Of a stretch of 41,064 bases of DNA, positions 6,272 through 18,338 are shown one piece after another; position 1 is the stretch's first letter; every line of letters starts with the position of its first letter. The notes beneath the pieces are model-generated. The model saw nothing but the letters and a program-made list of their open reading frames with translations. It was not told the origin of the DNA and made no database searches. This DNA comes from Candidatus Dormiibacterota bacterium (lineage in GTDB: Bacteria > Chloroflexota > Dormibacteria > Aeolococcales > Aeolococcaceae), in assembly GCA_036495095.1 (NCBI GenBank), contig DASXNK010000109.1, forward strand, positions 1 through 41,064, given 5' to 3'. The translations under genes were made by a program, and so were the position numbers.

Positions 6272-8508
<2,237 letters not shown>

Positions 8509-8512
8509 CGGG

Positions 8513-8974
8513 TCAGTCCTCCGTGTCGCCGGCCGTGCCGGTGACCTGCGGCTCCACCGCCTCCGGGGCGGCGGCCTTCGGGGCGCGGCGCCGGGCGGGG
8601 GCGGGGGCGGGGGCCTCCACACCGGCGGCGGCGGGCGCGCCCGGGCTGGGCAGCGGCTGGCCGGCGGTGAGCAGCGCCTCCACGCGCAGCTCGGTATACC
8701 GGCTGCGATGGCCCTGGGTGCGCCGGTAGCGCTTCTTCGCCTTGTACTTGTAGACGCGCAGCTTGCGTCCGAGACGGTGCCCGACGACGACCGCGGCGAC
8801 GCGGGCGCCCTGGGCGGCGTCGATCCCGGAGCCGGCGCCGTCGGCGTCGCCGAGGAGGAGCACGGGCTCCAGGGCGATCATCGACCCCACCTCGGCGGCC
8901 ACGCGGTCGACGAGGAAGCGGTCACCCGGGGCGAGCCGGTACTGGTGGCCCCCCTGCTGGACGATGGCGTACAT
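8513..8974 (-). CDS. rplU: 50S ribosomal protein L21 (bL21) with extended tail
   Basis: It starts [14 protein letters not shown], the typical L21 N-terminus. It keeps the conserved basic segment around [15 protein letters not shown] at about 82-97, which contacts 23S rRNA. The protein is 153 residues, about 50 longer than the usual 100-105. The extra C-terminal part, from about residue 105, is rich in Ala, Pro, Arg and Glu and looks disordered. First gene of the rplU-rpmA-obgE-nadD-rsfS operon. The longer upstream frame adds only 9 codons without family similarity. Confidence 0.95.
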
Positions 8975-9050
8975 GCGAGCTCCCGAGATGCTGCGGCGCA
9001 CGTCCGGGCCGACCGGACTCTGCCGGAATGCCCGGCCAGCGCGACGCGTG

Positions 9051-9059
9051 AGGATAGCA
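9051..9059 (-). promoter_or_regulatory. Extended -10 candidate for the rplU operon
   Basis: On the minus strand TGCTATCCT has the TGn extension plus a near-consensus -10. No -35 is convincing. It would start transcription near 9044 and give a leader of about 70 nt before rplU. That leader contains a 6-bp hairpin (9002-9007 with 9013-9018). Confidence 0.4.
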
Positions 9060-9068
9060 TGCCCGGGC

Positions 9069-10100
9069 TCAGTGCCCGGTCGGCGACGGGCTCGGACGGT
9101 GGAGTCCGCGCGCCGTCGGCGAGGCGCTCGGCGAGGGCGACGGCGACGGGGTGGGCGGCGGCGGGGCGTCGATGTTGATCGGCGCGGTGTCGGGCACCGA
9201 GGTCACGGTGCCGTTGGCCTCGCTGACCTGGACGGTCACGGGGTAGCGGCCCAGGTAGGCGGAGGGCACCACGTGGGCCCTGAAGACCACCGTCAGCCGC
9301 CCCGGCCCGGCGTTCCCCGCGGGCGGGATGGTCCAGCCTCCGTAGTCCAGCACCACCGCGTTGGGCGCCGGGTCGGTGGCGTTGCTCCGGGTCGCGTTCC
9401 CGCCCAGGCGCTCGGTCTTCTGGAAGGCGAGGATGTCGGGAAGGGTGATCAGCACGTCGACCCCCGACGACGGCCCGCTGCCGTCGTTGGTCACGGTGAG
9501 CAGGTAGGTGACGTCGTCCTCGCGCTTGACCCGGTTGGGCACCGCCGCGATGCTGATGTTGAGGTGGCCGGAGGGACCGACCTTGAGGTCGGCGGGCTTG
9601 CCCACCAGCTCGCCGTCGGCGCTGTCGCTGAAGACGTGGGGGGTCACCGCGAAGGTGCCCGGCTTCGACTTCACGGCGATCGTGAAGGTGATGGTGACGT
9701 GGGGGCGGCGCACCGTCCCGTCGGCCTGGCTCACCGGCGCGTTCAGGGTCCACACCCCCCAGGAGGGGTTGTTGGTGCGCACCCCGGGATCCTGGGGCAG
9801 GGTCCGCAGCACCCCGTAGGGGTCGATGTCGATGCTGTTGGTGGCGACGTACGTGGCCCCGTCGGGGAGGTCGACGCGGGCGCTCACCCCGCTCGCCGCC
9901 TGGGGACCGCCGTTGACGATGCTCAGCGTGTAGGTCGGGGTGTCCCCCGCCTTGACGGTGGCGCCGTTCTCGCCGCTGGTGAGGCTGACGATCAGGCTGC
10001 TGAGGCTTCCACTGCCGCAGCCGGGCAGCGCGGGCAGAGCCGCGAGCACCACCAGCAGGGGGAGCAGCCACGCCAGTGCGCGGCGAGAGCCCGCGCTCAG
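9069..10100 (-). CDS. DUF11-type repeat lipoprotein
   Basis: About 343 residues. The N-terminal signal peptide (ALAWLLPLLVVLAALPAL) ends in a lipobox-like LPGC, so the protein is probably lipidated and exported. The body holds two beta-rich modules typical of DUF11/CARDB-like surface domains. The first is near residues 35-130 (YTLSIVNGGPQAASGV) and the second near 175-300 (YLLTVTNDGSGPSSGV). The last 45 residues are a Pro/Ser/Thr-rich linker. No ATG or GTG lies before the signal peptide in this frame. The CTG at 10100 overlaps the maf TGA as CTGA and gives a complete signal peptide, so a coupled CTG start is the best model. It may act as a cell-surface adhesin or spacer; the ligand is unknown. 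Confidence 0.8.
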   Translation of the reverse strand: MSAGSRRALAWLLPLLVVLAALPALPGCGSGSLSSLIVSLTSGENGATVKAGDTPTYTLSIVNGGPQAASGVSARVDLPDGATYVATNSIDIDPYGVLRTLPQDPGVRTNNPSWGVWTLNAPVSQADGTVRRPHVTITFTIAVKSKPGTFAVTPHVFSDSADGELVGKPADLKVGPSGHLNISIAAVPNRVKREDDVTYLLTVTNDGSGPSSGVDVLITLPDILAFQKTERLGGNATRSNATDPAPNAVVLDYGGWTIPPAGNAGPGRLTVVFRAHVVPSAYLGRYPVTVQVSEANGTVTSVPDTAPINIDAPPPPTPSPSPSPSASPTARGLHRPSPSPTGH

Positions 10101-10759
10101 ACCCGGCTCGGGGTCCTGAGCGGCGAGAGCGGCCGCCGGACCGAGCGCGGCTGCAGCGGCACGTCGGCGGCGCTGGGCAGCGGCATCGGATAGCCGACCT
10201 CGGCGAGCAGCCGGAGCGCCAGCGTGACGTCGAGCCCGACCACGGTGTCGACCCGGCCGCCCACCGCCTCGATCCAGTCCCCGGCGCCGCCCTGGATGGC
10301 GTACCCGCCGGCCTTGTCGAGGGGCTCGCCCGAGGCCACGTAGGCGTCGAGGTCGGCGTCGTCGATCATCCGCATCCGGACCGCGGAGCGGCTCACGCCC
10401 AGCGCCTCGGCCCCGTTGGGCGCGGCGATGGCACAGATGCCGGTGAGGACGGTGTGGCGGGTGCCCTTGAGCTCGTCGAGCATCTGGCGGGCCCGCTCGG
10501 GGGTGCCGGGCTTGCCCATCAGGCCGCTCGGCCCCACCACCGCGGTGTCCGCAGCGAGGACGAAGGTGCCCACCGCCTGGGTGCGGGCCACCGACAGCGC
10601 CTTGTGACGTGCCACCAGCTGGACGGCGAGATCGCTGCACATCCCGGAGGGAGGGCTGATCTCCTCGGACGGCGGGGTCACGACGGTGAAGCGGACACCG
10701 ATGCGACTCAGCAGCTCGCGCCGGCGAGGGCTGGATGAGGCGAGAACAATGCGTGTCAT
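10097..10759 (-). CDS. maf: Maf family nucleotide pyrophosphatase
   Basis: A house-cleaning enzyme that hydrolyses non-canonical or modified nucleoside triphosphates such as dTTP, UTP or m7GTP, depending on subfamily. Family motifs are LASSSPRRRELL at residues 6-17, the AADTAVVG metal-site segment and DKAGGYAIQG near the C-terminal third. The length (220 aa) is slightly above the family norm because of a short basic tail. The start at ATG 10759 gives the standard MTRIVLASSSPRR N-terminus; the upstream in-frame Met is not supported. It overlaps the following lipoprotein gene by 4 nt. The 171 nt upstream (10760-10930) hold an AT-rich patch at about 10862-10895 that may contain the promoter. Confidence 0.92.
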   Translation of the reverse strand: MTRIVLASSSPRRRELLSRIGVRFTVVTPPSEEISPPSGMCSDLAVQLVARHKALSVARTQAVGTFVLAADTAVVGPSGLMGKPGTPERARQMLDELKGTRHTVLTGICAIAAPNGAEALGVSRSAVRMRMIDDADLDAYVASGEPLDKAGGYAIQGGAGDWIEAVGGRVDTVVGLDVTLALRLLAEVGYPMPLPSAADVPLQPRSVRRPLSPLRTPSRV

Positions 10760-10930
10760 CGGCGGCGCGTGCTCAGGCGGTCCGTGAGACTCACTTCTAA
10801 TGGCCGGCGGCGGGAGATCGGGAGAGGAGCCACCGTGCCCGCCGGGCGCGGCGACGAGAAACCGTTCATATGGTATCAAGTTTGAGGCTGTGGTTTCCGC
10901 ACAGGTGAGGGATGTGGAGGCGGTGCGCGG

Positions 10931-11656
10931 TCACGGCCGGCCGGCCATCGCGCCCAGCACCACGGCGGCGAGCCCGGCCAGGGCGGCCACCGCGGCGGCC
11001 TGCCGGACGGCGCGCCGGCCCAGCCCCGGCGCCAGCCGCCCGTGGACCGCGACGGCGGCGAGCACCACCAGCGCCGCGGCGGCGCCGGGGAGGCGGGGCA
11101 GCGCCGCCGGCGCCCACAGGGACATCCCCGCGAGCACCACCACCCCGAGCACCAGGGCGCGGGCCGGAGCCGGCGAGCTCCCCGGCTCGTCGGGCAGCAG
11201 CAGCGGGGCGGCAACCAGCACCGCGACCGCGGCGAGGTCGCGAGCCAGCGCGACCCGGGTGCCGGGGAGACCGACGATCACCGGGAGGCTGAAGGTGGCG
11301 CCGGCGGCGGCGAGGGCGAGCGCGGGCACGGTCGCGGCGGCGGCGACCAGCAGCCGGGGCGGCGACCAGCGCACCGGTCCGGTCAGCGCCACCGCGGCGG
11401 CGAGGAGCACGAGCATGCCGAGCAGGTTGGGGGCGGGGCCGGAGCGCCCCGGCAGGCTGCTCGCCGGGCTGCCCGGCAGCGGCAGCAGCGCCGCGGCCAG
11501 CCCGGCGCAGACCACCCCCGCCGCCGCCGGCGCGGTCCACCGCGCCGGCGCCACCGCCGCCCGGCCGCCGGCGAGCAGCGCCGCCCCGGCGAGGTAGGCG
11601 CCACCGGGGTAGAGCAGCACCGCGGCCGCCGCGGAGAGCAGCGCGAGGGCGTCCAT
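10931..11656 (-). CDS. Polytopic membrane protein, possibly NuoH/HyfC-like
   Basis: 241 residues, almost entirely hydrophobic, with about seven helices. A stretch RSGPAPNLLG followed by a hydrophobic helix recalls the RxGPN region of complex I subunit H, and PLLLPDEPG weakly recalls its acidic loop. The family's long acidic loops and full length (about 320 aa) are missing. I therefore call it NuoH/HyfC-like only tentatively. I find no lysine in it. The ATG shares one base with the stop of the preceding gene (TGATG). It is the last gene of the run that starts at valS. Confidence 0.65.
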   Translation of the reverse strand: MDALALLSAAAAVLLYPGGAYLAGAALLAGGRAAVAPARWTAPAAAGVVCAGLAAALLPLPGSPASSLPGRSGPAPNLLGMLVLLAAAVALTGPVRWSPPRLLVAAAATVPALALAAAGATFSLPVIVGLPGTRVALARDLAAVAVLVAAPLLLPDEPGSSPAPARALVLGVVVLAGMSLWAPAALPRLPGAAAALVVLAAVAVHGRLAPGLGRRAVRQAAAVAALAGLAAVVLGAMAGRP

Positions 11657-12915
11657 CAGCCGCTCACCCCGTTGCCGAAGACGCCGGTGGTGAGCCAGTC
11701 CGGGGCGAGCCCGAGCCCGAGCAGCCCCAGCGCCACCGACCAGGCGAGCAGCCGGGTCACCCGCGGCGCGGGCAGGGAATCGCCCGGCCGCCAGCCCCCG
11801 GCGAGGGCGCGCGCCGCCGTGCCCAGCAGCGCCGCCGAGGCGACCAGCCCGGCGAGCAGGGCGGTGCCGTTGGCCGCCGCCAGGCCGAGGAGCACCAGGT
11901 AGCGGCCCCAGAAGGCAGGGGTGGGGGGCAGCCCGGACAGGCTGAGCCAGGCCAGCCGCCGCTGCCGGTCGAGGGCGGAGCGGGCGCTGTGGAGGAGCAG
12001 CGGGCCGGCGCCCATGTGGGTGAGCACGAGCACGAAGCAGCCCAGCCGCCCGGAGGCGTGGGTGCTGCCCAGCCCCGCCGCGGCGAGGGCGAGGTCGGCG
12101 ATCAGCACCCGCCCGTAGCGGGCCGGCTCGGTCGATCGCAGCGCCATCAGGCTGCCCCAGGCCGCGCTCACCACCCCCAGGCAGAGAAGCACGTTGGCGA
12201 AGGGGTTGCGGGCCCCCGGGGGCAGCCCGGGGAGCAGCACGGTGGTGCCGAGCAGCACCGTGGGCGCCACCAGCAGCGCCCACGGGGCGACGTCGGCGCC
12301 GCGCACCACCCCGGTGGAGGCGGCCGCCCAGCCCCCCAGCGGCAGCAGTGCGAGCAGCGCCGACACCCCGGCGGCAAGGCAGCCACCGGCCAGCGCGGTG
12401 CGGGCGTCGAGGGTGGGCCCGGCGCCGGGGAGGAAGGCGGCGGCGGCGATCAGCGCGGCCGCGCCGAGGCCGGCGATGCGCCCGGCGGCGAGGGTGGCCC
12501 GGTGCGGCGCGGTGGTGATCCACCGCACCGTGATGGTCGCGACCGCGACGGCGATGGCGACGGCCCAGACGATGGCGACGGTGGCGGAGAGGGCGACCGC
12601 GCAGGCGGCGCCGGCGGCGCAGGCGGTGAGCACCTCGCCGCCGTCGAGCCGCGGCGCCAGCGCCAGGGTCAGCGCGAGGGCGAGCCCGGCGACCACCATC
12701 AGCCCGGCGGCGGGCCGGCCGAGGGCGAGGCTGGCGCCGTAGCGGGCGGAGGCGGCCGGGCCCGGCCAGGGTGCGGTCGTCGAGACCCCGAGAGCGCAGA
12801 GACCGGCGATCCCGGGCACCGTCCACGCCAGGCGGCGGCGGTGCCGCAGCGGGCCGAGGAGGAGCGCGGTGAGACCGCCCGCCACCCACACGCCGGCCAG
12901 CAGCATCGGGGTCAC
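11656..12915 (-). CDS. Antiporter-like membrane subunit, NuoN/HyfF type
   Basis: 419 residues with about 12 hydrophobic helices. The segment LSLSGLPPTPAFWGRYL near residue 315 matches the conserved loop and helix of NuoM/NuoN-type proton-translocating subunits, but the usual lysine is arginine or absent. The position where the family has a helix-5 glutamate (AIVWAVAIAVAV) lacks an acidic residue. I find no lysine anywhere. GTG 12915 overlaps the upstream stop as GTGA and was chosen; ATG 12906 is a close alternative. Likely a diverged, perhaps non-pumping, member of the antiporter-like family, in a membrane complex with its neighbours. Confidence 0.75.
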   Translation of the reverse strand: MTPMLLAGVWVAGGLTALLLGPLRHRRRLAWTVPGIAGLCALGVSTTAPWPGPAASARYGASLALGRPAAGLMVVAGLALALTLALAPRLDGGEVLTACAAGAACAVALSATVAIVWAVAIAVAVATITVRWITTAPHRATLAAGRIAGLGAAALIAAAAFLPGAGPTLDARTALAGGCLAAGVSALLALLPLGGWAAASTGVVRGADVAPWALLVAPTVLLGTTVLLPGLPPGARNPFANVLLCLGVVSAAWGSLMALRSTEPARYGRVLIADLALAAAGLGSTHASGRLGCFVLVLTHMGAGPLLLHSARSALDRQRRLAWLSLSGLPPTPAFWGRYLVLLGLAAANGTALLAGLVASAALLGTAARALAGGWRPGDSLPAPRVTRLLAWSVALGLLGLGLAPDWLTTGVFGNGVSG

Positions 12916-13547
12916 ACCCCCGCCTCGGGAGCGGCGGCGCGGTGGTGGCGGCCGCGCAGCCAGCCGGCCGTGACCGCGGCCGCGGGAGCCAGGGCGGCGG
13001 CCGCCATCGCCTCGGGCAGGGCGCTCGGCCCCGCCTCGAGGATCCAGGCCACCGCCCCGGCGAGGGCGACGGTGGCGGCGCCGACCAGCAGGTCCTCGAG
13101 GGCGCGGGCGCGGAGCAGCCGGATCGCCCCCACCAGCCAGGTGTAGGCGGCGGCGAAGACCGCCCCCTGGGCGGTTCCGGCGGCGCCGACGAGCACGTTG
13201 AGGCTGACCCACGACGCGGCCACCAGCGCCAGCGCCGCGGCCGCGGCACGGATGCTGCGGGGGCCGAAGAGCGCCTCCCGCGGCGCCACCACGGGAACCA
13301 GCGGGTCGAGCCCGGCCACCCTGCCCATCCGCCGTGCGCCCTGGCCGGCCGCCGGGTCGAGCAGCGCCGCGGTCAGCCCGGCGCCGATCACCACCGCCGC
13401 GGCGGGCAGGCCGCCGACGCTCGCCGCCGAGGGGGCGAGGGTCAGACCGACCACCAGCGCGGCGATGCCCACCGCCCGGTGCCCGTCGACGAGGGCGGCG
13501 ACGGCGCCGCCGAGGAAGCCGAGCGCGGCGATCAGGGTCTGGCTCAT
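12912..13547 (-). CDS. Membrane protein, possibly HyfE-like
   Basis: 211 residues with about six hydrophobic helices and a central loop containing APREALFGP. It lies between two antiporter-like subunits, the position that HyfE (a NuoK-like subunit of about 215 aa) takes in hydrogenase-4 operons, and the length fits. The assignment rests mainly on order and size. I find no lysine. The start ATG 13547 overlaps the upstream stop as ATGA, and the next gene overlaps its stop as GTGA, so translation is tightly coupled. Confidence 0.65.
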   Translation of the reverse strand: MSQTLIAALGFLGGAVAALVDGHRAVGIAALVVGLTLAPSAASVGGLPAAAVVIGAGLTAALLDPAAGQGARRMGRVAGLDPLVPVVAPREALFGPRSIRAAAAALALVAASWVSLNVLVGAAGTAQGAVFAAAYTWLVGAIRLLRARALEDLLVGAATVALAGAVAWILEAGPSALPEAMAAAALAPAAAVTAGWLRGRHHRAAAPEAGV

Positions 13548-15238
13548 CGGAAGATGAACAGGCAGGCGGCGACGCCGGCGAGGACCACGACCAGGCCCGG
13601 CTGGGTGACCAGCCAGCGGTCGACGGAGACGAGCACGTGGATCCCCCTCCCCGCCGCCGCCAGCCCGCGGGAGACCAGGCCCGGCAGCGCCCGCCCCAGG
13701 GACGGCCAGGCGTCGACCAGCGCTGGGGGCGGCGGCCCGGGGCGGCCCGGCTCGCGCCCGGGGGTGGCGACACCCTCGATCGCGGCGGCGGAGGCGGCGG
13801 CGACCACCGCCAGCAGGGCGGCGAGCTCGAGGTATCCGCCCGGCCAGCCACCGCCCGCGCCCAGCACCGCGCCGGCGTCGACCACGCCCGAGGTGCCGGC
13901 GTCGGCGAGCGGGTCGATGATCCCGCCGAGGGCGAGCCCGGGCAGGAGGCCGAGCACCGCGCCGCTCACCACCGCGAGCAGGGCGTCGACCCGGGGACGC
14001 CCCCAGGCCAGCCCCGACGGCGCCGAGGCGAGCGTCGAGCGCGCCGCGGCCGCCCCGGCGGCGGCGGTCAGCAGCCCGACGGCGGCCACCCCGCTGCCCG
14101 CCGCCGCCCCCAGCGGTCCCTGGGGCAGCGCCGCGCCCGCGCCCATGACGAGCGCGGTGGTGCCGATCCCCAGGGGCAGGCCGCCGGCGGCCGCAAGCGC
14201 CATGGCACGCAGCCAGACCGCGGCCCGGCCGCTCCCCTCCTCGCCGCCCGCCCCCCAGGCCGGCGCGGCGGCGAGCACGAGAAGCAGGGCGACCCCGGTG
14301 GCGGCGACCCCCAGCCGCGCCGGCTGGGTGACCACCCCGGCGAGGGCGATCACCGGGCCGGCGGCGGCCAACGCCAGCGCCCGCCCGGCGGCGGTGGGCA
14401 GGGCGTGGCGGCGCAGCGCCTCCACCGCCCCGGCGAGGCCGATCGCCAGTCCCGCCGCCACCAGGGTGCCGGCCACCAGCGGCGGCAGCCCGGCGTCGCC
14501 GGCGGCCTCGCTGAGCCGGAGCAGCACGATCAGGCCGGTGGGGACGGCGGCCACCGCCACCCAGCTCGAGCTCTCCCGCCGGCCCGGGACGGAGGGCAGG
14601 CCGGCGGCCCCGAGCAGCCGCACCGCGCCGGCGAGCGCCCAGGGCCCGGCAACCGTCCCCCAGGTGAGGGCCCGGGCCGGGAGCGCGCTCAGGTCGGTGG
14701 TGCCCACCCCGTTCTGGAGCTCGATGGCGGCGGCCAGGAGGCCGAGCGCGGCGGCGTGCTGGAGGGCGAGGCCGATCCGCGCCCGGCGCCCCAGCGGCCC
14801 CGCGCCGGCGGCGAGCAGGACGGCGCCGACGTTGCCGAGCTCGAGGCCGCCGAAGAGCAGCACCGCGTTGCCGGCGAGGGCGGCGAGGCAGCTGGCGGTG
14901 AGGCAGAGCATCAGCCCGGCCCGCTCGACCGGGTTCCGCCGCGGCTCGGCGAGCGCCATCAGCGTCACCGCGCAGGCGATCATCGCCACCGTCAGCCCGG
15001 CGGGGTCGGCGCGGAGCACCAGCGCCGCCCCGGGGACGAGGTCGCCGAGCGACCGCTCGACCCGTCCGGAGGGCAGCACCACGGGGAGGTCGGAGGCGAG
15101 CAGCGCCAGCGCCGCCACCACCGCCGCGAGCGACAGCAGCCGGGCCGTCCGGGCGGCCCGCGGCGGCAGCGGATACAGGGCCAGCGTGGCAGCGACCAGC
15201 ACCCCGCAGGTGAGCAGCGGCCGGAGGCCGGGGCTCAG
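13544..15238 (-). CDS. Antiporter-like membrane subunit, HyfB/HyfD or NuoL/M-like
   Basis: About 564 residues with 14 or so helices. LLFGGLELGNVGAVLL matches the helix carrying the conserved glutamate (LFxGLE) of complex I antiporter-like subunits. The segment GAVRLLGAAGLPSVPG sits where the family has its FKxxxxPFHxWLP motif, with Arg replacing the key Lys and the HxW part lost. I find no lysine in the protein. The C-terminus has a Pro-rich loop and a last helix at the extreme end. The first usual start is GTG 15202. CTG 15238 overlaps the upstream TGA as CTGA and completes the first membrane helix (LRPLLTCGVLVAATLALYPL), so I use it. The family call is secure only at the superfamily level. 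Confidence 0.75.
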   Translation of the reverse strand: MSPGLRPLLTCGVLVAATLALYPLPPRAARTARLLSLAAVVAALALLASDLPVVLPSGRVERSLGDLVPGAALVLRADPAGLTVAMIACAVTLMALAEPRRNPVERAGLMLCLTASCLAALAGNAVLLFGGLELGNVGAVLLAAGAGPLGRRARIGLALQHAAALGLLAAAIELQNGVGTTDLSALPARALTWGTVAGPWALAGAVRLLGAAGLPSVPGRRESSSWVAVAAVPTGLIVLLRLSEAAGDAGLPPLVAGTLVAAGLAIGLAGAVEALRRHALPTAAGRALALAAAGPVIALAGVVTQPARLGVAATGVALLLVLAAAPAWGAGGEEGSGRAAVWLRAMALAAAGGLPLGIGTTALVMGAGAALPQGPLGAAAGSGVAAVGLLTAAAGAAAARSTLASAPSGLAWGRPRVDALLAVVSGAVLGLLPGLALGGIIDPLADAGTSGVVDAGAVLGAGGGWPGGYLELAALLAVVAAASAAAIEGVATPGREPGRPGPPPPALVDAWPSLGRALPGLVSRGLAAAGRGIHVLVSVDRWLVTQPGLVVVLAGVAACLFIFR

Positions 15239-15720
15239 GAGGAGGCCGCCTGGCCGCTGCCGCCGCGCCCCGGGGTGGCCACCTCCTCGGCGCAGTACGG
15301 GCAGACCCGCCAGCCCAGCCGCAGCCAGCGCTGGCAGCCACGGCAGCGGCGGGCGAACTGGGTGCGGCAGTAGGGGCAGATGACGAAGTCGAGCTCGATC
15401 TCGCGCCCGCAGGTGGGGCAGGGCCGCGAGACCACCTCGACCGGGCCCTCGGTGAGCGCCTGCTCCTCGAGCAGGAGCGCGCGCTCCTCGTCGAGGGTGT
15501 GGGGGGGCCGCAGCACCAGGTAGAGGAGCAGGCCGAGGTAGGGCAGCACGTTGACCGCCCCGGCGAAGACGGCGAGCAGCGGCGACTCGCTGCGGCGCCG
15601 GGCGTCGCGCACCGCCCAGAAGGCGAGCGCGATCCAGAAGAACGCGAGGAAGAGGACGACGACCACCACCAGCAGGGTGCCCGCCGCGGAGTCGAGGAGG
15701 GCAGCCGGCGGGGCGGTCAT
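15235..15720 (-). CDS. Double zinc-ribbon membrane protein
   Basis: 161 residues. Two membrane helices lie at about 15-42 and 53-77. A cytoplasmic tail then carries two zinc ribbons: CPTC with CPYC, then CRGC with CPYC, at about residues 108-148. This layout is common in small bacterial membrane proteins of unknown function. It overlaps the valS stop by 4 nt (ATGA), and the next gene starts in its stop codon. It therefore joins valS to the antiporter-like genes in one transcript and may help assemble that complex. That role is inference from position. Confidence 0.85.
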   Translation of the reverse strand: MTAPPAALLDSAAGTLLVVVVVLFLAFFWIALAFWAVRDARRRSESPLLAVFAGAVNVLPYLGLLLYLVLRPPHTLDEERALLLEEQALTEGPVEVVSRPCPTCGREIELDFVICPYCRTQFARRCRGCQRWLRLGWRVCPYCAEEVATPGRGGSGQAASS

Positions 15721-18338
15721 CCCTGGTCGAGCAGCCGGCGCAGGGTGTCGCGCTGGGCGATCGCCTCGGCGAGGAGGCGGCCGGTCCTCTCCACCATCTC
15801 CGGCCCAGCGCCGTCGACGAAGCGGGGGTTGGCCAGCTGGGCGGTGTAGCGGTCGACCAGGGCCTGTGCCTGCCGCCACTGCTTCTCCAGGCGGGCCCGG
15901 TCCACCGGCGCCCCGCCGGTGCCCAGGGCGGCCTCCGTCCCCCCCGCCACCACCCGCACCGGGTCGGTGCCGGTGGGGAGCTCGTCGACCACCGTCACCG
16001 CCACCAGCGCCTCCACCAGCCGGCGCAGGTCGTCGGTCGACAGGCTCTCGTCGGCGGTGCGCAGCGTCACCGGCTGGCGCTGCTTGAAGCCGGTGGGAAG
16101 CCCGGCCTCCTGGCGGGCGTGGCGCAGCGCCCCGACCAGCTCCATCACCCGCTCCACCCCGGCGGCGGCGCCGTTGGCGCCCTCCCGCCACCAGGACGGC
16201 GGCGCCGGCCACTCCCGCTGCTGCAGCGTCGGCGCCGCCCCGGGCAGCCGCACCGCGCACTCCTCGGTGACGAAGGGCATGAACGGGTGGAGGAGGCGGA
16301 GCAGGGTGTCGAGCACGGTCACCGCGGTCCACTCCGCGGCGACCCGGGACGCGGGGTCGGCGTCGTCGCCGAGCCGGCCCTTGATCATCTCGACGTACCA
16401 GTCGCAGTAGCCGCGCCAGGTGAGGTCGTAGAGCCGCTCCATCACCTCGTGGAAGCGGTAGGCGGCGATCGCCGCGTCGCAGGCGGCGACGGTCTCGGCG
16501 ACCCGGGCGAGGATCCAGCGGTCCTCGGGGTGCAGGGTGGCGGGGTCGAGCTCCGGCGCCCGGGCGATGCGCTCGCCGTCACCGAGCCGGGTGACCAGCA
16601 GGCGGGTGGCGTTCCACAGCTTGTTGGCGAAGAGCCGGTAGCCGGCGACGCGGTTCTCGTCGAAGCGCATGTCCTGGCCGGAGGTGCCCACCGCGCCCGC
16701 CCAGGCACGCACCGCGTCGGCGCCATAGCGCTCGATCATGTCGAGGGGGTCGATCACGTTGCCCTTCGACTTGCTCATCCGCGAGCCGTCGACGGCCATG
16801 ATCGTGCTGTTGATGATCACGTCGCTGAAGGGCTTCGCGCCGGCGAAGCGGAGGCCGGTCATGATCATCCGCGCCACCCAGAGGAAGATGATCTCGCGCG
16901 CGGTCACCAGCACGTCGGTGGGATAGAAGCGGCGCAGGTCGGGGGTGTCGTCGGGCCAGCCGAAGATGGCGAACGGCCAGAGCGCGCTGCTGAACCAGGT
17001 GTCGAGCACGTCGGGGTCGTCGGTGAGCTCGGCGCCGCCGCACTCCGGGCATGCCTCGGGGTGCTCGACCCAGGCGAAGCGGTGGCCGTTGGCGCAGATC
17101 GACACCGGGATGGCGTGGCCCAGCCAGAGCTGGCGGCTGATGCACCAGTCGCGGATGTTGCGCATCCAGTCCAGGTACACGTTCTCGAAGCGCCGCGGGT
17201 GGAAGCTCACCTCGCCGGCCTCGACGGCGGCGATCGCGGGCTCGGCGAGCGGGCGCATCGTCACCCACCACTGCTCGCTGATCAGCGGCTCGAGCACGCC
17301 CTTGCAGCGGTCGCAGTGGCCGACCGAGTGGACGTACTCGTCCTCCCCCACCACCGCGCCGAGCTCGCGCAGCGCAGCGGTCACCTCGGCGCGGGCGCGG
17401 TTCACCGACAGCCCGTGGAAGCGGGGCAGGTCGGGCACGTCCATGGTGCCGTCGAGGGCGATCACCCCGATCATCGGGAGGCCATGGCGCTGGCCGATGT
17501 CGTAGTCGGTGGGGTCGTGGGCCGGGGTCACCTTGAGCGCGCCGGTGCCGAACTCGGGCTCGACCGCATCGTCCTCGAAGATGGGGATCCGCCGCCCGGT
17601 GAGCGGCAGCACCACGAGGCGCCCCACCAGCTCCGCGTAGCGGGGGTCACCCGGGGACACGGCCACGCCGGTGTCGCCGAGCATGGTCTCCGGCCGCACC
17701 GTGGCGATGGTGATGTCACCGCCGCCCTCGACGGGGTAGCGGATGCGCACCAGGCTGTCGGTGTGCTCCTGCCACTCCACCTCCTCGTCGCTGATCGCCG
17801 AGCGGCAGCGCGGGCACCAGTTGACGATCCGCGGGCCGCGGTAGATCAGCCCCTCGTCGTAGAGCTCCTTGAAGACGACACGGATGGCACGAACGTAGGC
17901 GGGGTCGAGGGTGAAGCGCGCCCGCGACCAGTCGCAGGAGAAGCCGAGGCGGCGCATCTGCTCGAAGATCCGCCCCCCGTACTCCTCGTACCAGGCGTCC
18001 ACCCGGGCCCTGAAGGCCTCGCGGCCGAGCTCCTCCTTGGTGAGGCCCTCGGAGGCGAGCTGGCGCTCGATCACGTTCTGGGTGGCGATCGCGGCGTGGT
18101 CGGTGCCCGGGCACCACTCCACCTCGTCGCCGCGCATCCGGCGGTGCCGGGCGAGAACGTCCTGCACCGAGAACGACGCGGTGTGCCCCATGTGGAGCGC
18201 CCCGGTGATGTTCGGCGGCGGCAGCGCGATGCTGAAGGAGGTGCGGTCGGTGGTGGCGTCGGCGACGCCGACCCCGAGCTCCTCCCAGCGCGCCCGCCAG
18301 CGCGGCTCGACGTCGGAGGGAGAGAAGGACTTGTCCAT
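15717..18338 (-). CDS. valS: Valyl-tRNA synthetase
   Basis: Class I aminoacyl-tRNA synthetase charging tRNA-Val. PPPNITGALHMGH holds the HIGH-type motif at residues 49-52, and SRMSKSKGNVIDP holds KMSKS near residue 522. The CP1 editing domain lies between them. The anticodon-binding domain follows, and the C-terminal coiled coil (RARLEKQWRQAQALVDRYTAQL) is typical of ValRS. At 873 residues it is full length and intact. ATG 18338 follows AGGAG by a few nucleotides and a good promoter at 18363-18390. First gene of a run through to 10931. Confidence 0.97.
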   Translation of the reverse strand: MDKSFSPSDVEPRWRARWEELGVGVADATTDRTSFSIALPPPNITGALHMGHTASFSVQDVLARHRRMRGDEVEWCPGTDHAAIATQNVIERQLASEGLTKEELGREAFRARVDAWYEEYGGRIFEQMRRLGFSCDWSRARFTLDPAYVRAIRVVFKELYDEGLIYRGPRIVNWCPRCRSAISDEEVEWQEHTDSLVRIRYPVEGGGDITIATVRPETMLGDTGVAVSPGDPRYAELVGRLVVLPLTGRRIPIFEDDAVEPEFGTGALKVTPAHDPTDYDIGQRHGLPMIGVIALDGTMDVPDLPRFHGLSVNRARAEVTAALRELGAVVGEDEYVHSVGHCDRCKGVLEPLISEQWWVTMRPLAEPAIAAVEAGEVSFHPRRFENVYLDWMRNIRDWCISRQLWLGHAIPVSICANGHRFAWVEHPEACPECGGAELTDDPDVLDTWFSSALWPFAIFGWPDDTPDLRRFYPTDVLVTAREIIFLWVARMIMTGLRFAGAKPFSDVIINSTIMAVDGSRMSKSKGNVIDPLDMIERYGADAVRAWAGAVGTSGQDMRFDENRVAGYRLFANKLWNATRLLVTRLGDGERIARAPELDPATLHPEDRWILARVAETVAACDAAIAAYRFHEVMERLYDLTWRGYCDWYVEMIKGRLGDDADPASRVAAEWTAVTVLDTLLRLLHPFMPFVTEECAVRLPGAAPTLQQREWPAPPSWWREGANGAAAGVERVMELVGALRHARQEAGLPTGFKQRQPVTLRTADESLSTDDLRRLVEALVAVTVVDELPTGTDPVRVVAGGTEAALGTGGAPVDRARLEKQWRQAQALVDRYTAQLANPRFVDGAGPEMVERTGRLLAEAIAQRDTLRRLLDQG

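Follow-up and report, generated by a model that had tools for sequence, protein, structure and literature searches.

Gene layout of the locus

The window analysed here is the whole stretch of 41,064 nucleotides formed by contig DASXNK010000109.1 (positions 1 to 41,064, forward strand) of the Candidatus Dormiibacterota bacterium assembly GCA_036495095.1. On its minus strand, a module of four genes (P1–P4) spans 10931-15202 and encodes approximately 1,423 residues in total. Its products resemble the membrane arm of respiratory complex I and of the group 4 hydrogenases. The four genes, in their order of reading, are as follows.

13544-15202, minus strand: P1, 552 amino acids (aa), GTG start, frame open as far as 15238; antiporter-like subunit on profile evidence.
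12912-13547, minus strand: P2, 211 aa, approximately seven transmembrane helices (TM) in a 3+4 layout.
11656-12915, minus strand: P3, 419 aa, antiporter-like subunit with the predicted NuoN/NuoM/MrpD fold.
10931-11656, minus strand: P4, 241 aa, subunit with the predicted NuoH/HyfC fold.

Neighbouring genes of the module overlap by 1-4 bases, at ATGA for P1/P2, GTGA for P2/P3 and TGATG for P3/P4. In an earlier note made from the sequence alone, this was described as a set of four overlapping genes without lysine; the count agreed, with 0 AAA and 0 AAG among 1,422 codons. Genes for the peripheral-arm subunits NuoB, C, D and I were absent from the window, and no other nuo or hyf gene was found there by phmmer with Escherichia coli proteins or by profile search, in agreement with the note's remark that no such gene or hydrogenase gene lay nearby.

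The antiporter-like subunits P3 and P1

The relationships of P3 were evaluated via profile comparison and an AlphaFold model. In hhalign, the P3 profile (32 orthologues) aligned with NuoM at 96-97% and with NuoN at 95.7-98.0% (98% in global mode), and the reversed-profile controls for the P3 and P1 comparisons remained below 1%. The model had a predicted local distance difference test value (pLDDT) of 89.8 and showed the helix breaks known from antiporter-like subunits, in TM7 (187-193) and in TM12 (325-331). Foldseek gave TM-scores of up to 0.82 to ND4, NuoN and MrpD among the solved complex I and Mrp subunits, and VIA aligned 402 residues to the complex I chain 4he8_G with a Z value of 38.1. 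By its predicted fold and its profile, P3 is a full antiporter-like subunit.

P1 aligned with P3 at 97.0% (E-value 1.2e-10), with NuoN at 87.6% (96.4% in global mode), with the group 4 subunit HyfB at 86.9% and with NuoL at 79% in global mode over 549 columns. The only match of the P1 profile in the PDB was MrpD (7qru_D, E-value 3.3e-5), with residues 3-425 of P1 aligned to 9-466. The C-terminus of P1 consists of a linker followed by the last TM, which is reminiscent of NuoL and HyfB. Judged by these profiles, P1 is an antiporter-like subunit related to NuoL, NuoM, HyfB and MrpD. The fold of 14 TM with broken TM7 and TM12 was hence seen in the P3 model and was assigned to P1 on profile evidence. 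The relation to the antiporter subunits of complex I and hydrogenase-4 that the earlier note had proposed was borne out by the P3 fold and by both profiles.

None of the four window proteins matched a curated family above its cut-off, although a strong match to a described family was sought. One P3 orthologue (G006) just exceeded the PF00361 cut-off (21.8 against 21.5 bits) and was the sole such case. The single-sequence matches in Pfam, NCBIfam and the PDB (e.g., Colicin for P1) were at chance level and were rejected.

Residues at the proton relay sites

In NuoM of Thermus thermophilus (Nqo13), the proton wire is formed by Lys235-His292-Glu377 and the switch pair by Glu123-Lys204 (PMC11496545). 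The equivalent sites of the module were located through alignments to the profiles of E. coli NuoM and NuoN, which agreed with each other; NuoL agreed at the TM7 and TM12 sites. P3 has A121 at the TM5 Glu, L186 at the TM7 Lys, P217 at the central Lys of TM8, D273 at the TM10 His and R337 at the TM12 Lys/Glu. Orthologues were compared across families of the class Dormibacteria (soil bacteria), labelled f1-f4, of which f4 belongs to another order; the assemblies, as far as named, are from uncultured bacteria. Among 53 P3 orthologues of three families, P217 and R337 were each found in 53/53, and position 273 was Asp in 51 and Glu in the remaining 2. Relatives with lysine at these sites were sought, and none of the 53 had one. 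These counts rely on the alignment of divergent sequences, many of which were just 25-40% identical to the window P3; the columns of P217, D273 and R337 are clear by conservation. D273 and R337, located beside the broken TM12, were the best-conserved charges of P3. R145 and R337 lie at K158 and K395 of NuoN, respectively, and R145 was conserved in f1 and f2 but not in f4.

In P1, E121 aligned with the TM5 Glu (E133 of NuoN, E144 of NuoM). This Glu was kept in 16 of 31 sequences of f1 and f2, was replaced by Gln in 8 and was Ala in most f4 sequences. The other relay sites of P1 were occupied by aliphatic residues or Pro, and 19 of the 21 f4 sequences carried Arg at the position of TM12. The claims that the conserved Glu was kept in the first gene and absent from the third (E121 of P1 vs A121 of P3), and that the key Lys positions were Arg or lost (in P3 they are Arg, Pro or Leu, in P1 aliphatic residues), were therefore correct. 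The residue swaps in P1 and P3 indicate that the usual proton wire is absent from both antiporter-like subunits. Since the relay residues were not found, apart from E121 in some P1 sequences, the two proteins are regarded as homologues by descent rather than as functional members of the antiporter-like superfamily.

P4 and P2

The AlphaFold model of P4 had a pLDDT of 89.1. The first 8 Foldseek matches were all NuoH, HycD or MbsM (probability 0.95-1.00, best E-value 2.8e-3), with HycD as the best. In the VIA comparison, the top 50 matches were all NuoH-type chains (NuoH/ND1/HycD), with 225 of 241 residues aligned and a Z value of 14.3. Helical bundles can give background Z values of up to ~13; the case is carried by the uniformity of the list and by the coverage. 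P4 is predicted on this structural basis to have the NuoH/HyfC fold. The sequence profile gave at most 0.9% with NuoH, which is not significant, and no PDB profile match. In an alignment of 40 sequences, no Asp or Glu column of P4 was conserved at 90%, and the acidic motif and loops of the quinone chamber were not found; only a Pro of the motif region may persist, as read by eye.

P2 has seven TM in a 3+4 layout. Its size, place and layout are HyfE-like, and it is conserved in f1, f2 and f4. Its profile matched none of HyfE, NuoK, NuoJ, MnhB and MrpA-C, and no PDB or Pfam match was obtained. All values were below 1% except in global runs, which reached 1.0-1.4% on tails only. An assignment of P2 as HyfE, NuoK or NuoJ was not supported, nor did it gain support when the profiles were trimmed and f4 sequences were included; only a short register of P2 89-119 to HyfE 90-120 recurred, at 0.1%. 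An identity as MnhB/MrpB, suggested by eye from an R to G spacing, was ruled out (hhalign 0.2%). The gene order hyfB/D-hyfE-hyfF read by the earlier note was not retained. The second gene resembles hyfE in size, place and 3+4 layout, with no support from any profile comparison, and the order is instead L/M-like, unknown, N/M-like and H-like, the NuoH fold of P4 having been missed.

Lysine content and selection

The DNA has a guanine-cytosine (GC) content of 78%, and the module has a third-position GC content (GC3) of 0.97. At this composition, matches of hidden Markov models can fall in the wrong frame, and the orthologue sets of P2 and P4 were restricted by position. The canonical complex I membrane subunits of the same genome contain 30 Lys in 2,210 aa, from which 19.3 Lys would be expected in P1–P4; with this yardstick, the Poisson probability of zero is ~4e-9. 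Because the complex I subunits retain their functional lysines, the test shows only that the module kept none. If an orphan nuoJ-K-L-M-N set from this genome, with 12 Lys in 1,849 aa, serves as the yardstick instead, ~9 Lys would be expected. GC content was ruled out as the full cause of the loss, given the 30 lysines of the genome's own complex I. Of the complete modules in f1 and f2, 13 of 32 were strictly lysine-free, and the remainder carried 1-8 Lys. Some members thus lack lysine altogether, but this does not hold for the family as a rule.

The ratio of nonsynonymous to synonymous substitution rates (dN/dS) relative to the nearest relative was 0.36 for P1, 0.21 for P2, 0.28 for P3 and 0.35 for P4. 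Values of 0.21-0.36 indicate that P1–P4 are real genes under purifying selection; spurious or decaying genes were ruled out by these values and by the conservation in relatives.

Distribution and genomic neighbours

With the window protein as the query, P3 orthologues were found in 47 of 61 relatives. Within the class, 110 genomes were searched with the P3 profile and 94 gave matches, those in f3 being weak and partial. Outside the class, all matches were partial, such as genuine NuoM/N-type proteins also produce, and no full-length orthologue was found. The genes flanking the module are as follows.

15235-15720, minus strand: P5, double zinc ribbon (DZR) protein with approximately two TM, between valS and P1; a facultative neighbour.
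15717-18338, minus strand: valS, the essential valyl-tRNA synthetase gene, identified from its open reading frame (ORF) and sequence; head of the apparent operon.
10097-10759, minus strand: maf, which bounds the block on its downstream side in f1, f2 and f3.

The valS stop overlaps the P5 start at ATGA. Given this overlap and those at the three junctions within the module, valS and the genes behind it appear to form a single operon with translational coupling, with valS at its head. In all four families, valS lay directly upstream of the module wherever the contig reached it. The order P1-P2-P3-P4 behind valS was kept in the f1 and f2 loci with long enough contigs and in 21/21 f4 loci examined. 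In f4, the gene after P4 was a mreB-like gene or rplU-rpmA instead of maf; the downstream border had moved and valS had stayed.

The f3 loci (L234-L236, L238-L240) were reduced to valS-P5-P1, one ORF of ~530 aa and maf, with no P4. The end of this ORF matched P3 at 94%, and its middle gave a weak alignment to P2 where P2 would be expected; the two matches suggest a fusion of P2 and P3 that has been shortened.

P5 matched the Pfam DZR family above the cut-off (E-value 6.6e-9). It was found between valS and P1 in f1 and f3 (3306-3782 in L236), and no P5 was seen in that place in f2 and f4. This patchy distribution means that P5 was either ancestral and then lost or gained twice. The suggested tie of the module to the zinc-ribbon protein thus held insofar as P5 adjoins P1 in two families; the tie is not obligatory, since the search of this locus in f2 and f4 gave no P5.

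Electron-transfer partners in the genome

The genome, which is 96.6% complete, was searched for electron-transfer partners. A single PF00346 (49-kDa subunit) gene was found, within the canonical complex I on another contig (C62). Four PF01058 genes were present. One is on a short contig (C102), the adjoining DNA of which reads as complex I by eye; the other three match small subunits of soluble-type hydrogenases. These three paralogous genes (C93:14947, C21:7020 and C90:20031; L243-L245) are of the soluble/peripheral type, score below the NCBIfam cut-offs and fit trace-gas hydrogen oxidation. No catalytic subunit of a group 4 hydrogenase (HyfG/HyfI-type) was found in the genome, and the MnhB score, 13.6 bits on another contig, was below the cut-off of 22.5.

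Several relatives in f1 and f2 carry hyf-like clusters of the order hyfC-E-F-G-I-B (L158-L170), and L164 has two in opposite orientation. Since genuine hyf-like clusters sit elsewhere in these relatives, the module is not such a cluster displaced. The second orphan antiporter set of the present genome, nuoJ-K-L-M-N, is located on contig C67 (L076, ~7727-13976), and its B, C, D, H and I genes were not found in 19 kb; relatives carry nuoK-L-M-N (L171-L175).

Comparison with known systems

The module was compared with the known relatives of its parts. As in NuoL, NuoM, NuoN, MrpA and MrpD (PF00361), P3 has the fold of 14 TM with broken TM7 and TM12, two such subunits are paired, and the profile alignments of P1 and P3 are full-length. 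Unlike in these proteins, the pair of TM5 Glu and TM7 Lys is missing from P3, Pro, Asp and Arg occupy relay sites, and the window proteins fall below every curated cut-off. P4 shares the fold of NuoH, ND1, HyfC and MbsM over 225/241 residues, whereas its length is 241 aa vs ~320 in NuoH and its 40 aligned sequences have no conserved acidic residue. Relative to complex I (NDH-1), NuoB, C, D and I are not encoded beside the membrane arm. The membrane arm of hydrogenase-4 and other group 4 [NiFe] enzymes (HyfB-F, HycC, HycD) likewise has two antiporter-like subunits, one NuoH-fold subunit and one seven-TM subunit of HyfE size, but no HyfG/HyfI-type gene was found in this genome, the order differs, and the resemblance of P2 to HyfE is one of size, place and layout. 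The Mrp (Mnh) antiporter is also an orphan membrane complex without an electron-transfer arm, and the P1 profile matches MrpD; the module differs in its NuoH-type subunit P4, and MrpC, the MrpA C-terminus and MnhB had no match among its proteins. Mrp is not known to have a NuoH subunit. A description of such a module was not found in the part of the literature searched.

Interpretation of the module

Three of the four proteins (P1, P3 and P4) descend from the proton-pumping arm of complex I. P1–P4 is a class-wide, complex-I-like orphan membrane arm under purifying selection, and, judging from its residues, it would be unable to pump by the known relay. Such an orphan complex without classical proton pumping had been proposed in the earlier note, and the proposal was supported after all of the contrary observations it had named (a nearby peripheral arm, a strong match to a described family and relatives with lysine at the conserved sites) had been sought and not found. 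The four proteins are probably co-expressed behind valS and assemble as one complex.

The function tentatively favoured, with a likelihood a little short of even, is that of a membrane arm of the complex I/group 4 hydrogenase type that has neither a peripheral arm nor proton chemistry and in which P3 forms a core with an Asp-Arg pair. P3 would most likely be the working core, and P1, P2 and P4 would be structural partners holding the assembly. The buried pair D273-R337, with a putative contact from TM10 to the broken TM12, may substitute for the His-Lys/Glu relay. This pair would either hold the old path shut or gate a path for a non-proton ion. How far antiporter-like subunits rely on the Lys-His-Lys/Glu chain to transfer protons is a matter of continuing debate. 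In known machines, the NuoH-fold subunit anchors the peripheral arm (PMC7684303). As P4 has no acidic loops and no arm is present, there would be no evident route for redox coupling. Against this reading, the NuoH assignment of P4 is supported by structure but by no significant profile match of its sequence, and f3 has retained no more than P1 and a P2–P3 fusion of reduced length, so not all four parts are needed everywhere.

Almost as likely is a structural or regulatory membrane platform that conducts nothing, in which the Asp-Arg pair would stabilise the fold and the complex would tether P5 (in f1 and f3) or another partner. Nearly all relay residues of P1 and all conserved acids of P4 have been lost, f3 tolerates the loss of P4 and the shortening of P2–P3, and P5 belongs to the same apparent operon, all of which favour a possible platform. 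However, P3 has preserved the breaks in TM7 and TM12, as well as an invariant pair of charges, over class-level divergence, and no P5 was found in f2 and f4 to be tethered. A class-wide, redox-independent transport complex derived from a complex I membrane arm, in which the Asp-Arg pair of TM10/TM12, with the central Pro, would replace the Lys-His-Lys/Glu wire and gate a different ion and expression would be tied to valS, was considered rather unlikely.

Redox-driven operation would be expected if the module were an alternative or accessory membrane part that docks either on the canonical complex I arm or on a soluble-type hydrogenase. The genome does encode a canonical complex I, along with three more small subunits of NiFe type, and the NuoH fold of P4 is that of the normal docking subunit. 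Nevertheless, docking appears improbable: no acidic position is conserved in P4, which is also ~80 residues shorter than NuoH, and two f1 members, G019 (no NuoH match) and G015 (12.6 bits, below the cut-off), keep the module, both genomes being incomplete. Classical pumping of protons or cations by a Hyf- or Mrp-type machine, with Arg in place of Lys through extreme GC content, would agree with the GC3, the lack of lysine codons and the position of R145 and R337 at NuoN lysines, but is very improbable because the central Lys is Pro, the His is Asp, the TM5 Glu and TM7 Lys are gone, the lysine-bearing complex I of the same genome indicates that GC content does not force the loss, and the genome has no Mrp MnhB subunit over the cut-off.

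The module constitutes a natural mutant series: throughout the class, the relay has been swapped to Pro, Asp and Arg, whereas the fold, both helix breaks and a partner of the NuoH type persist. It could separate the parts of the fold needed for assembly from those needed for proton transfer. Furthermore, it adds an orphan branch to the family of Mrp, hydrogenase and complex I.

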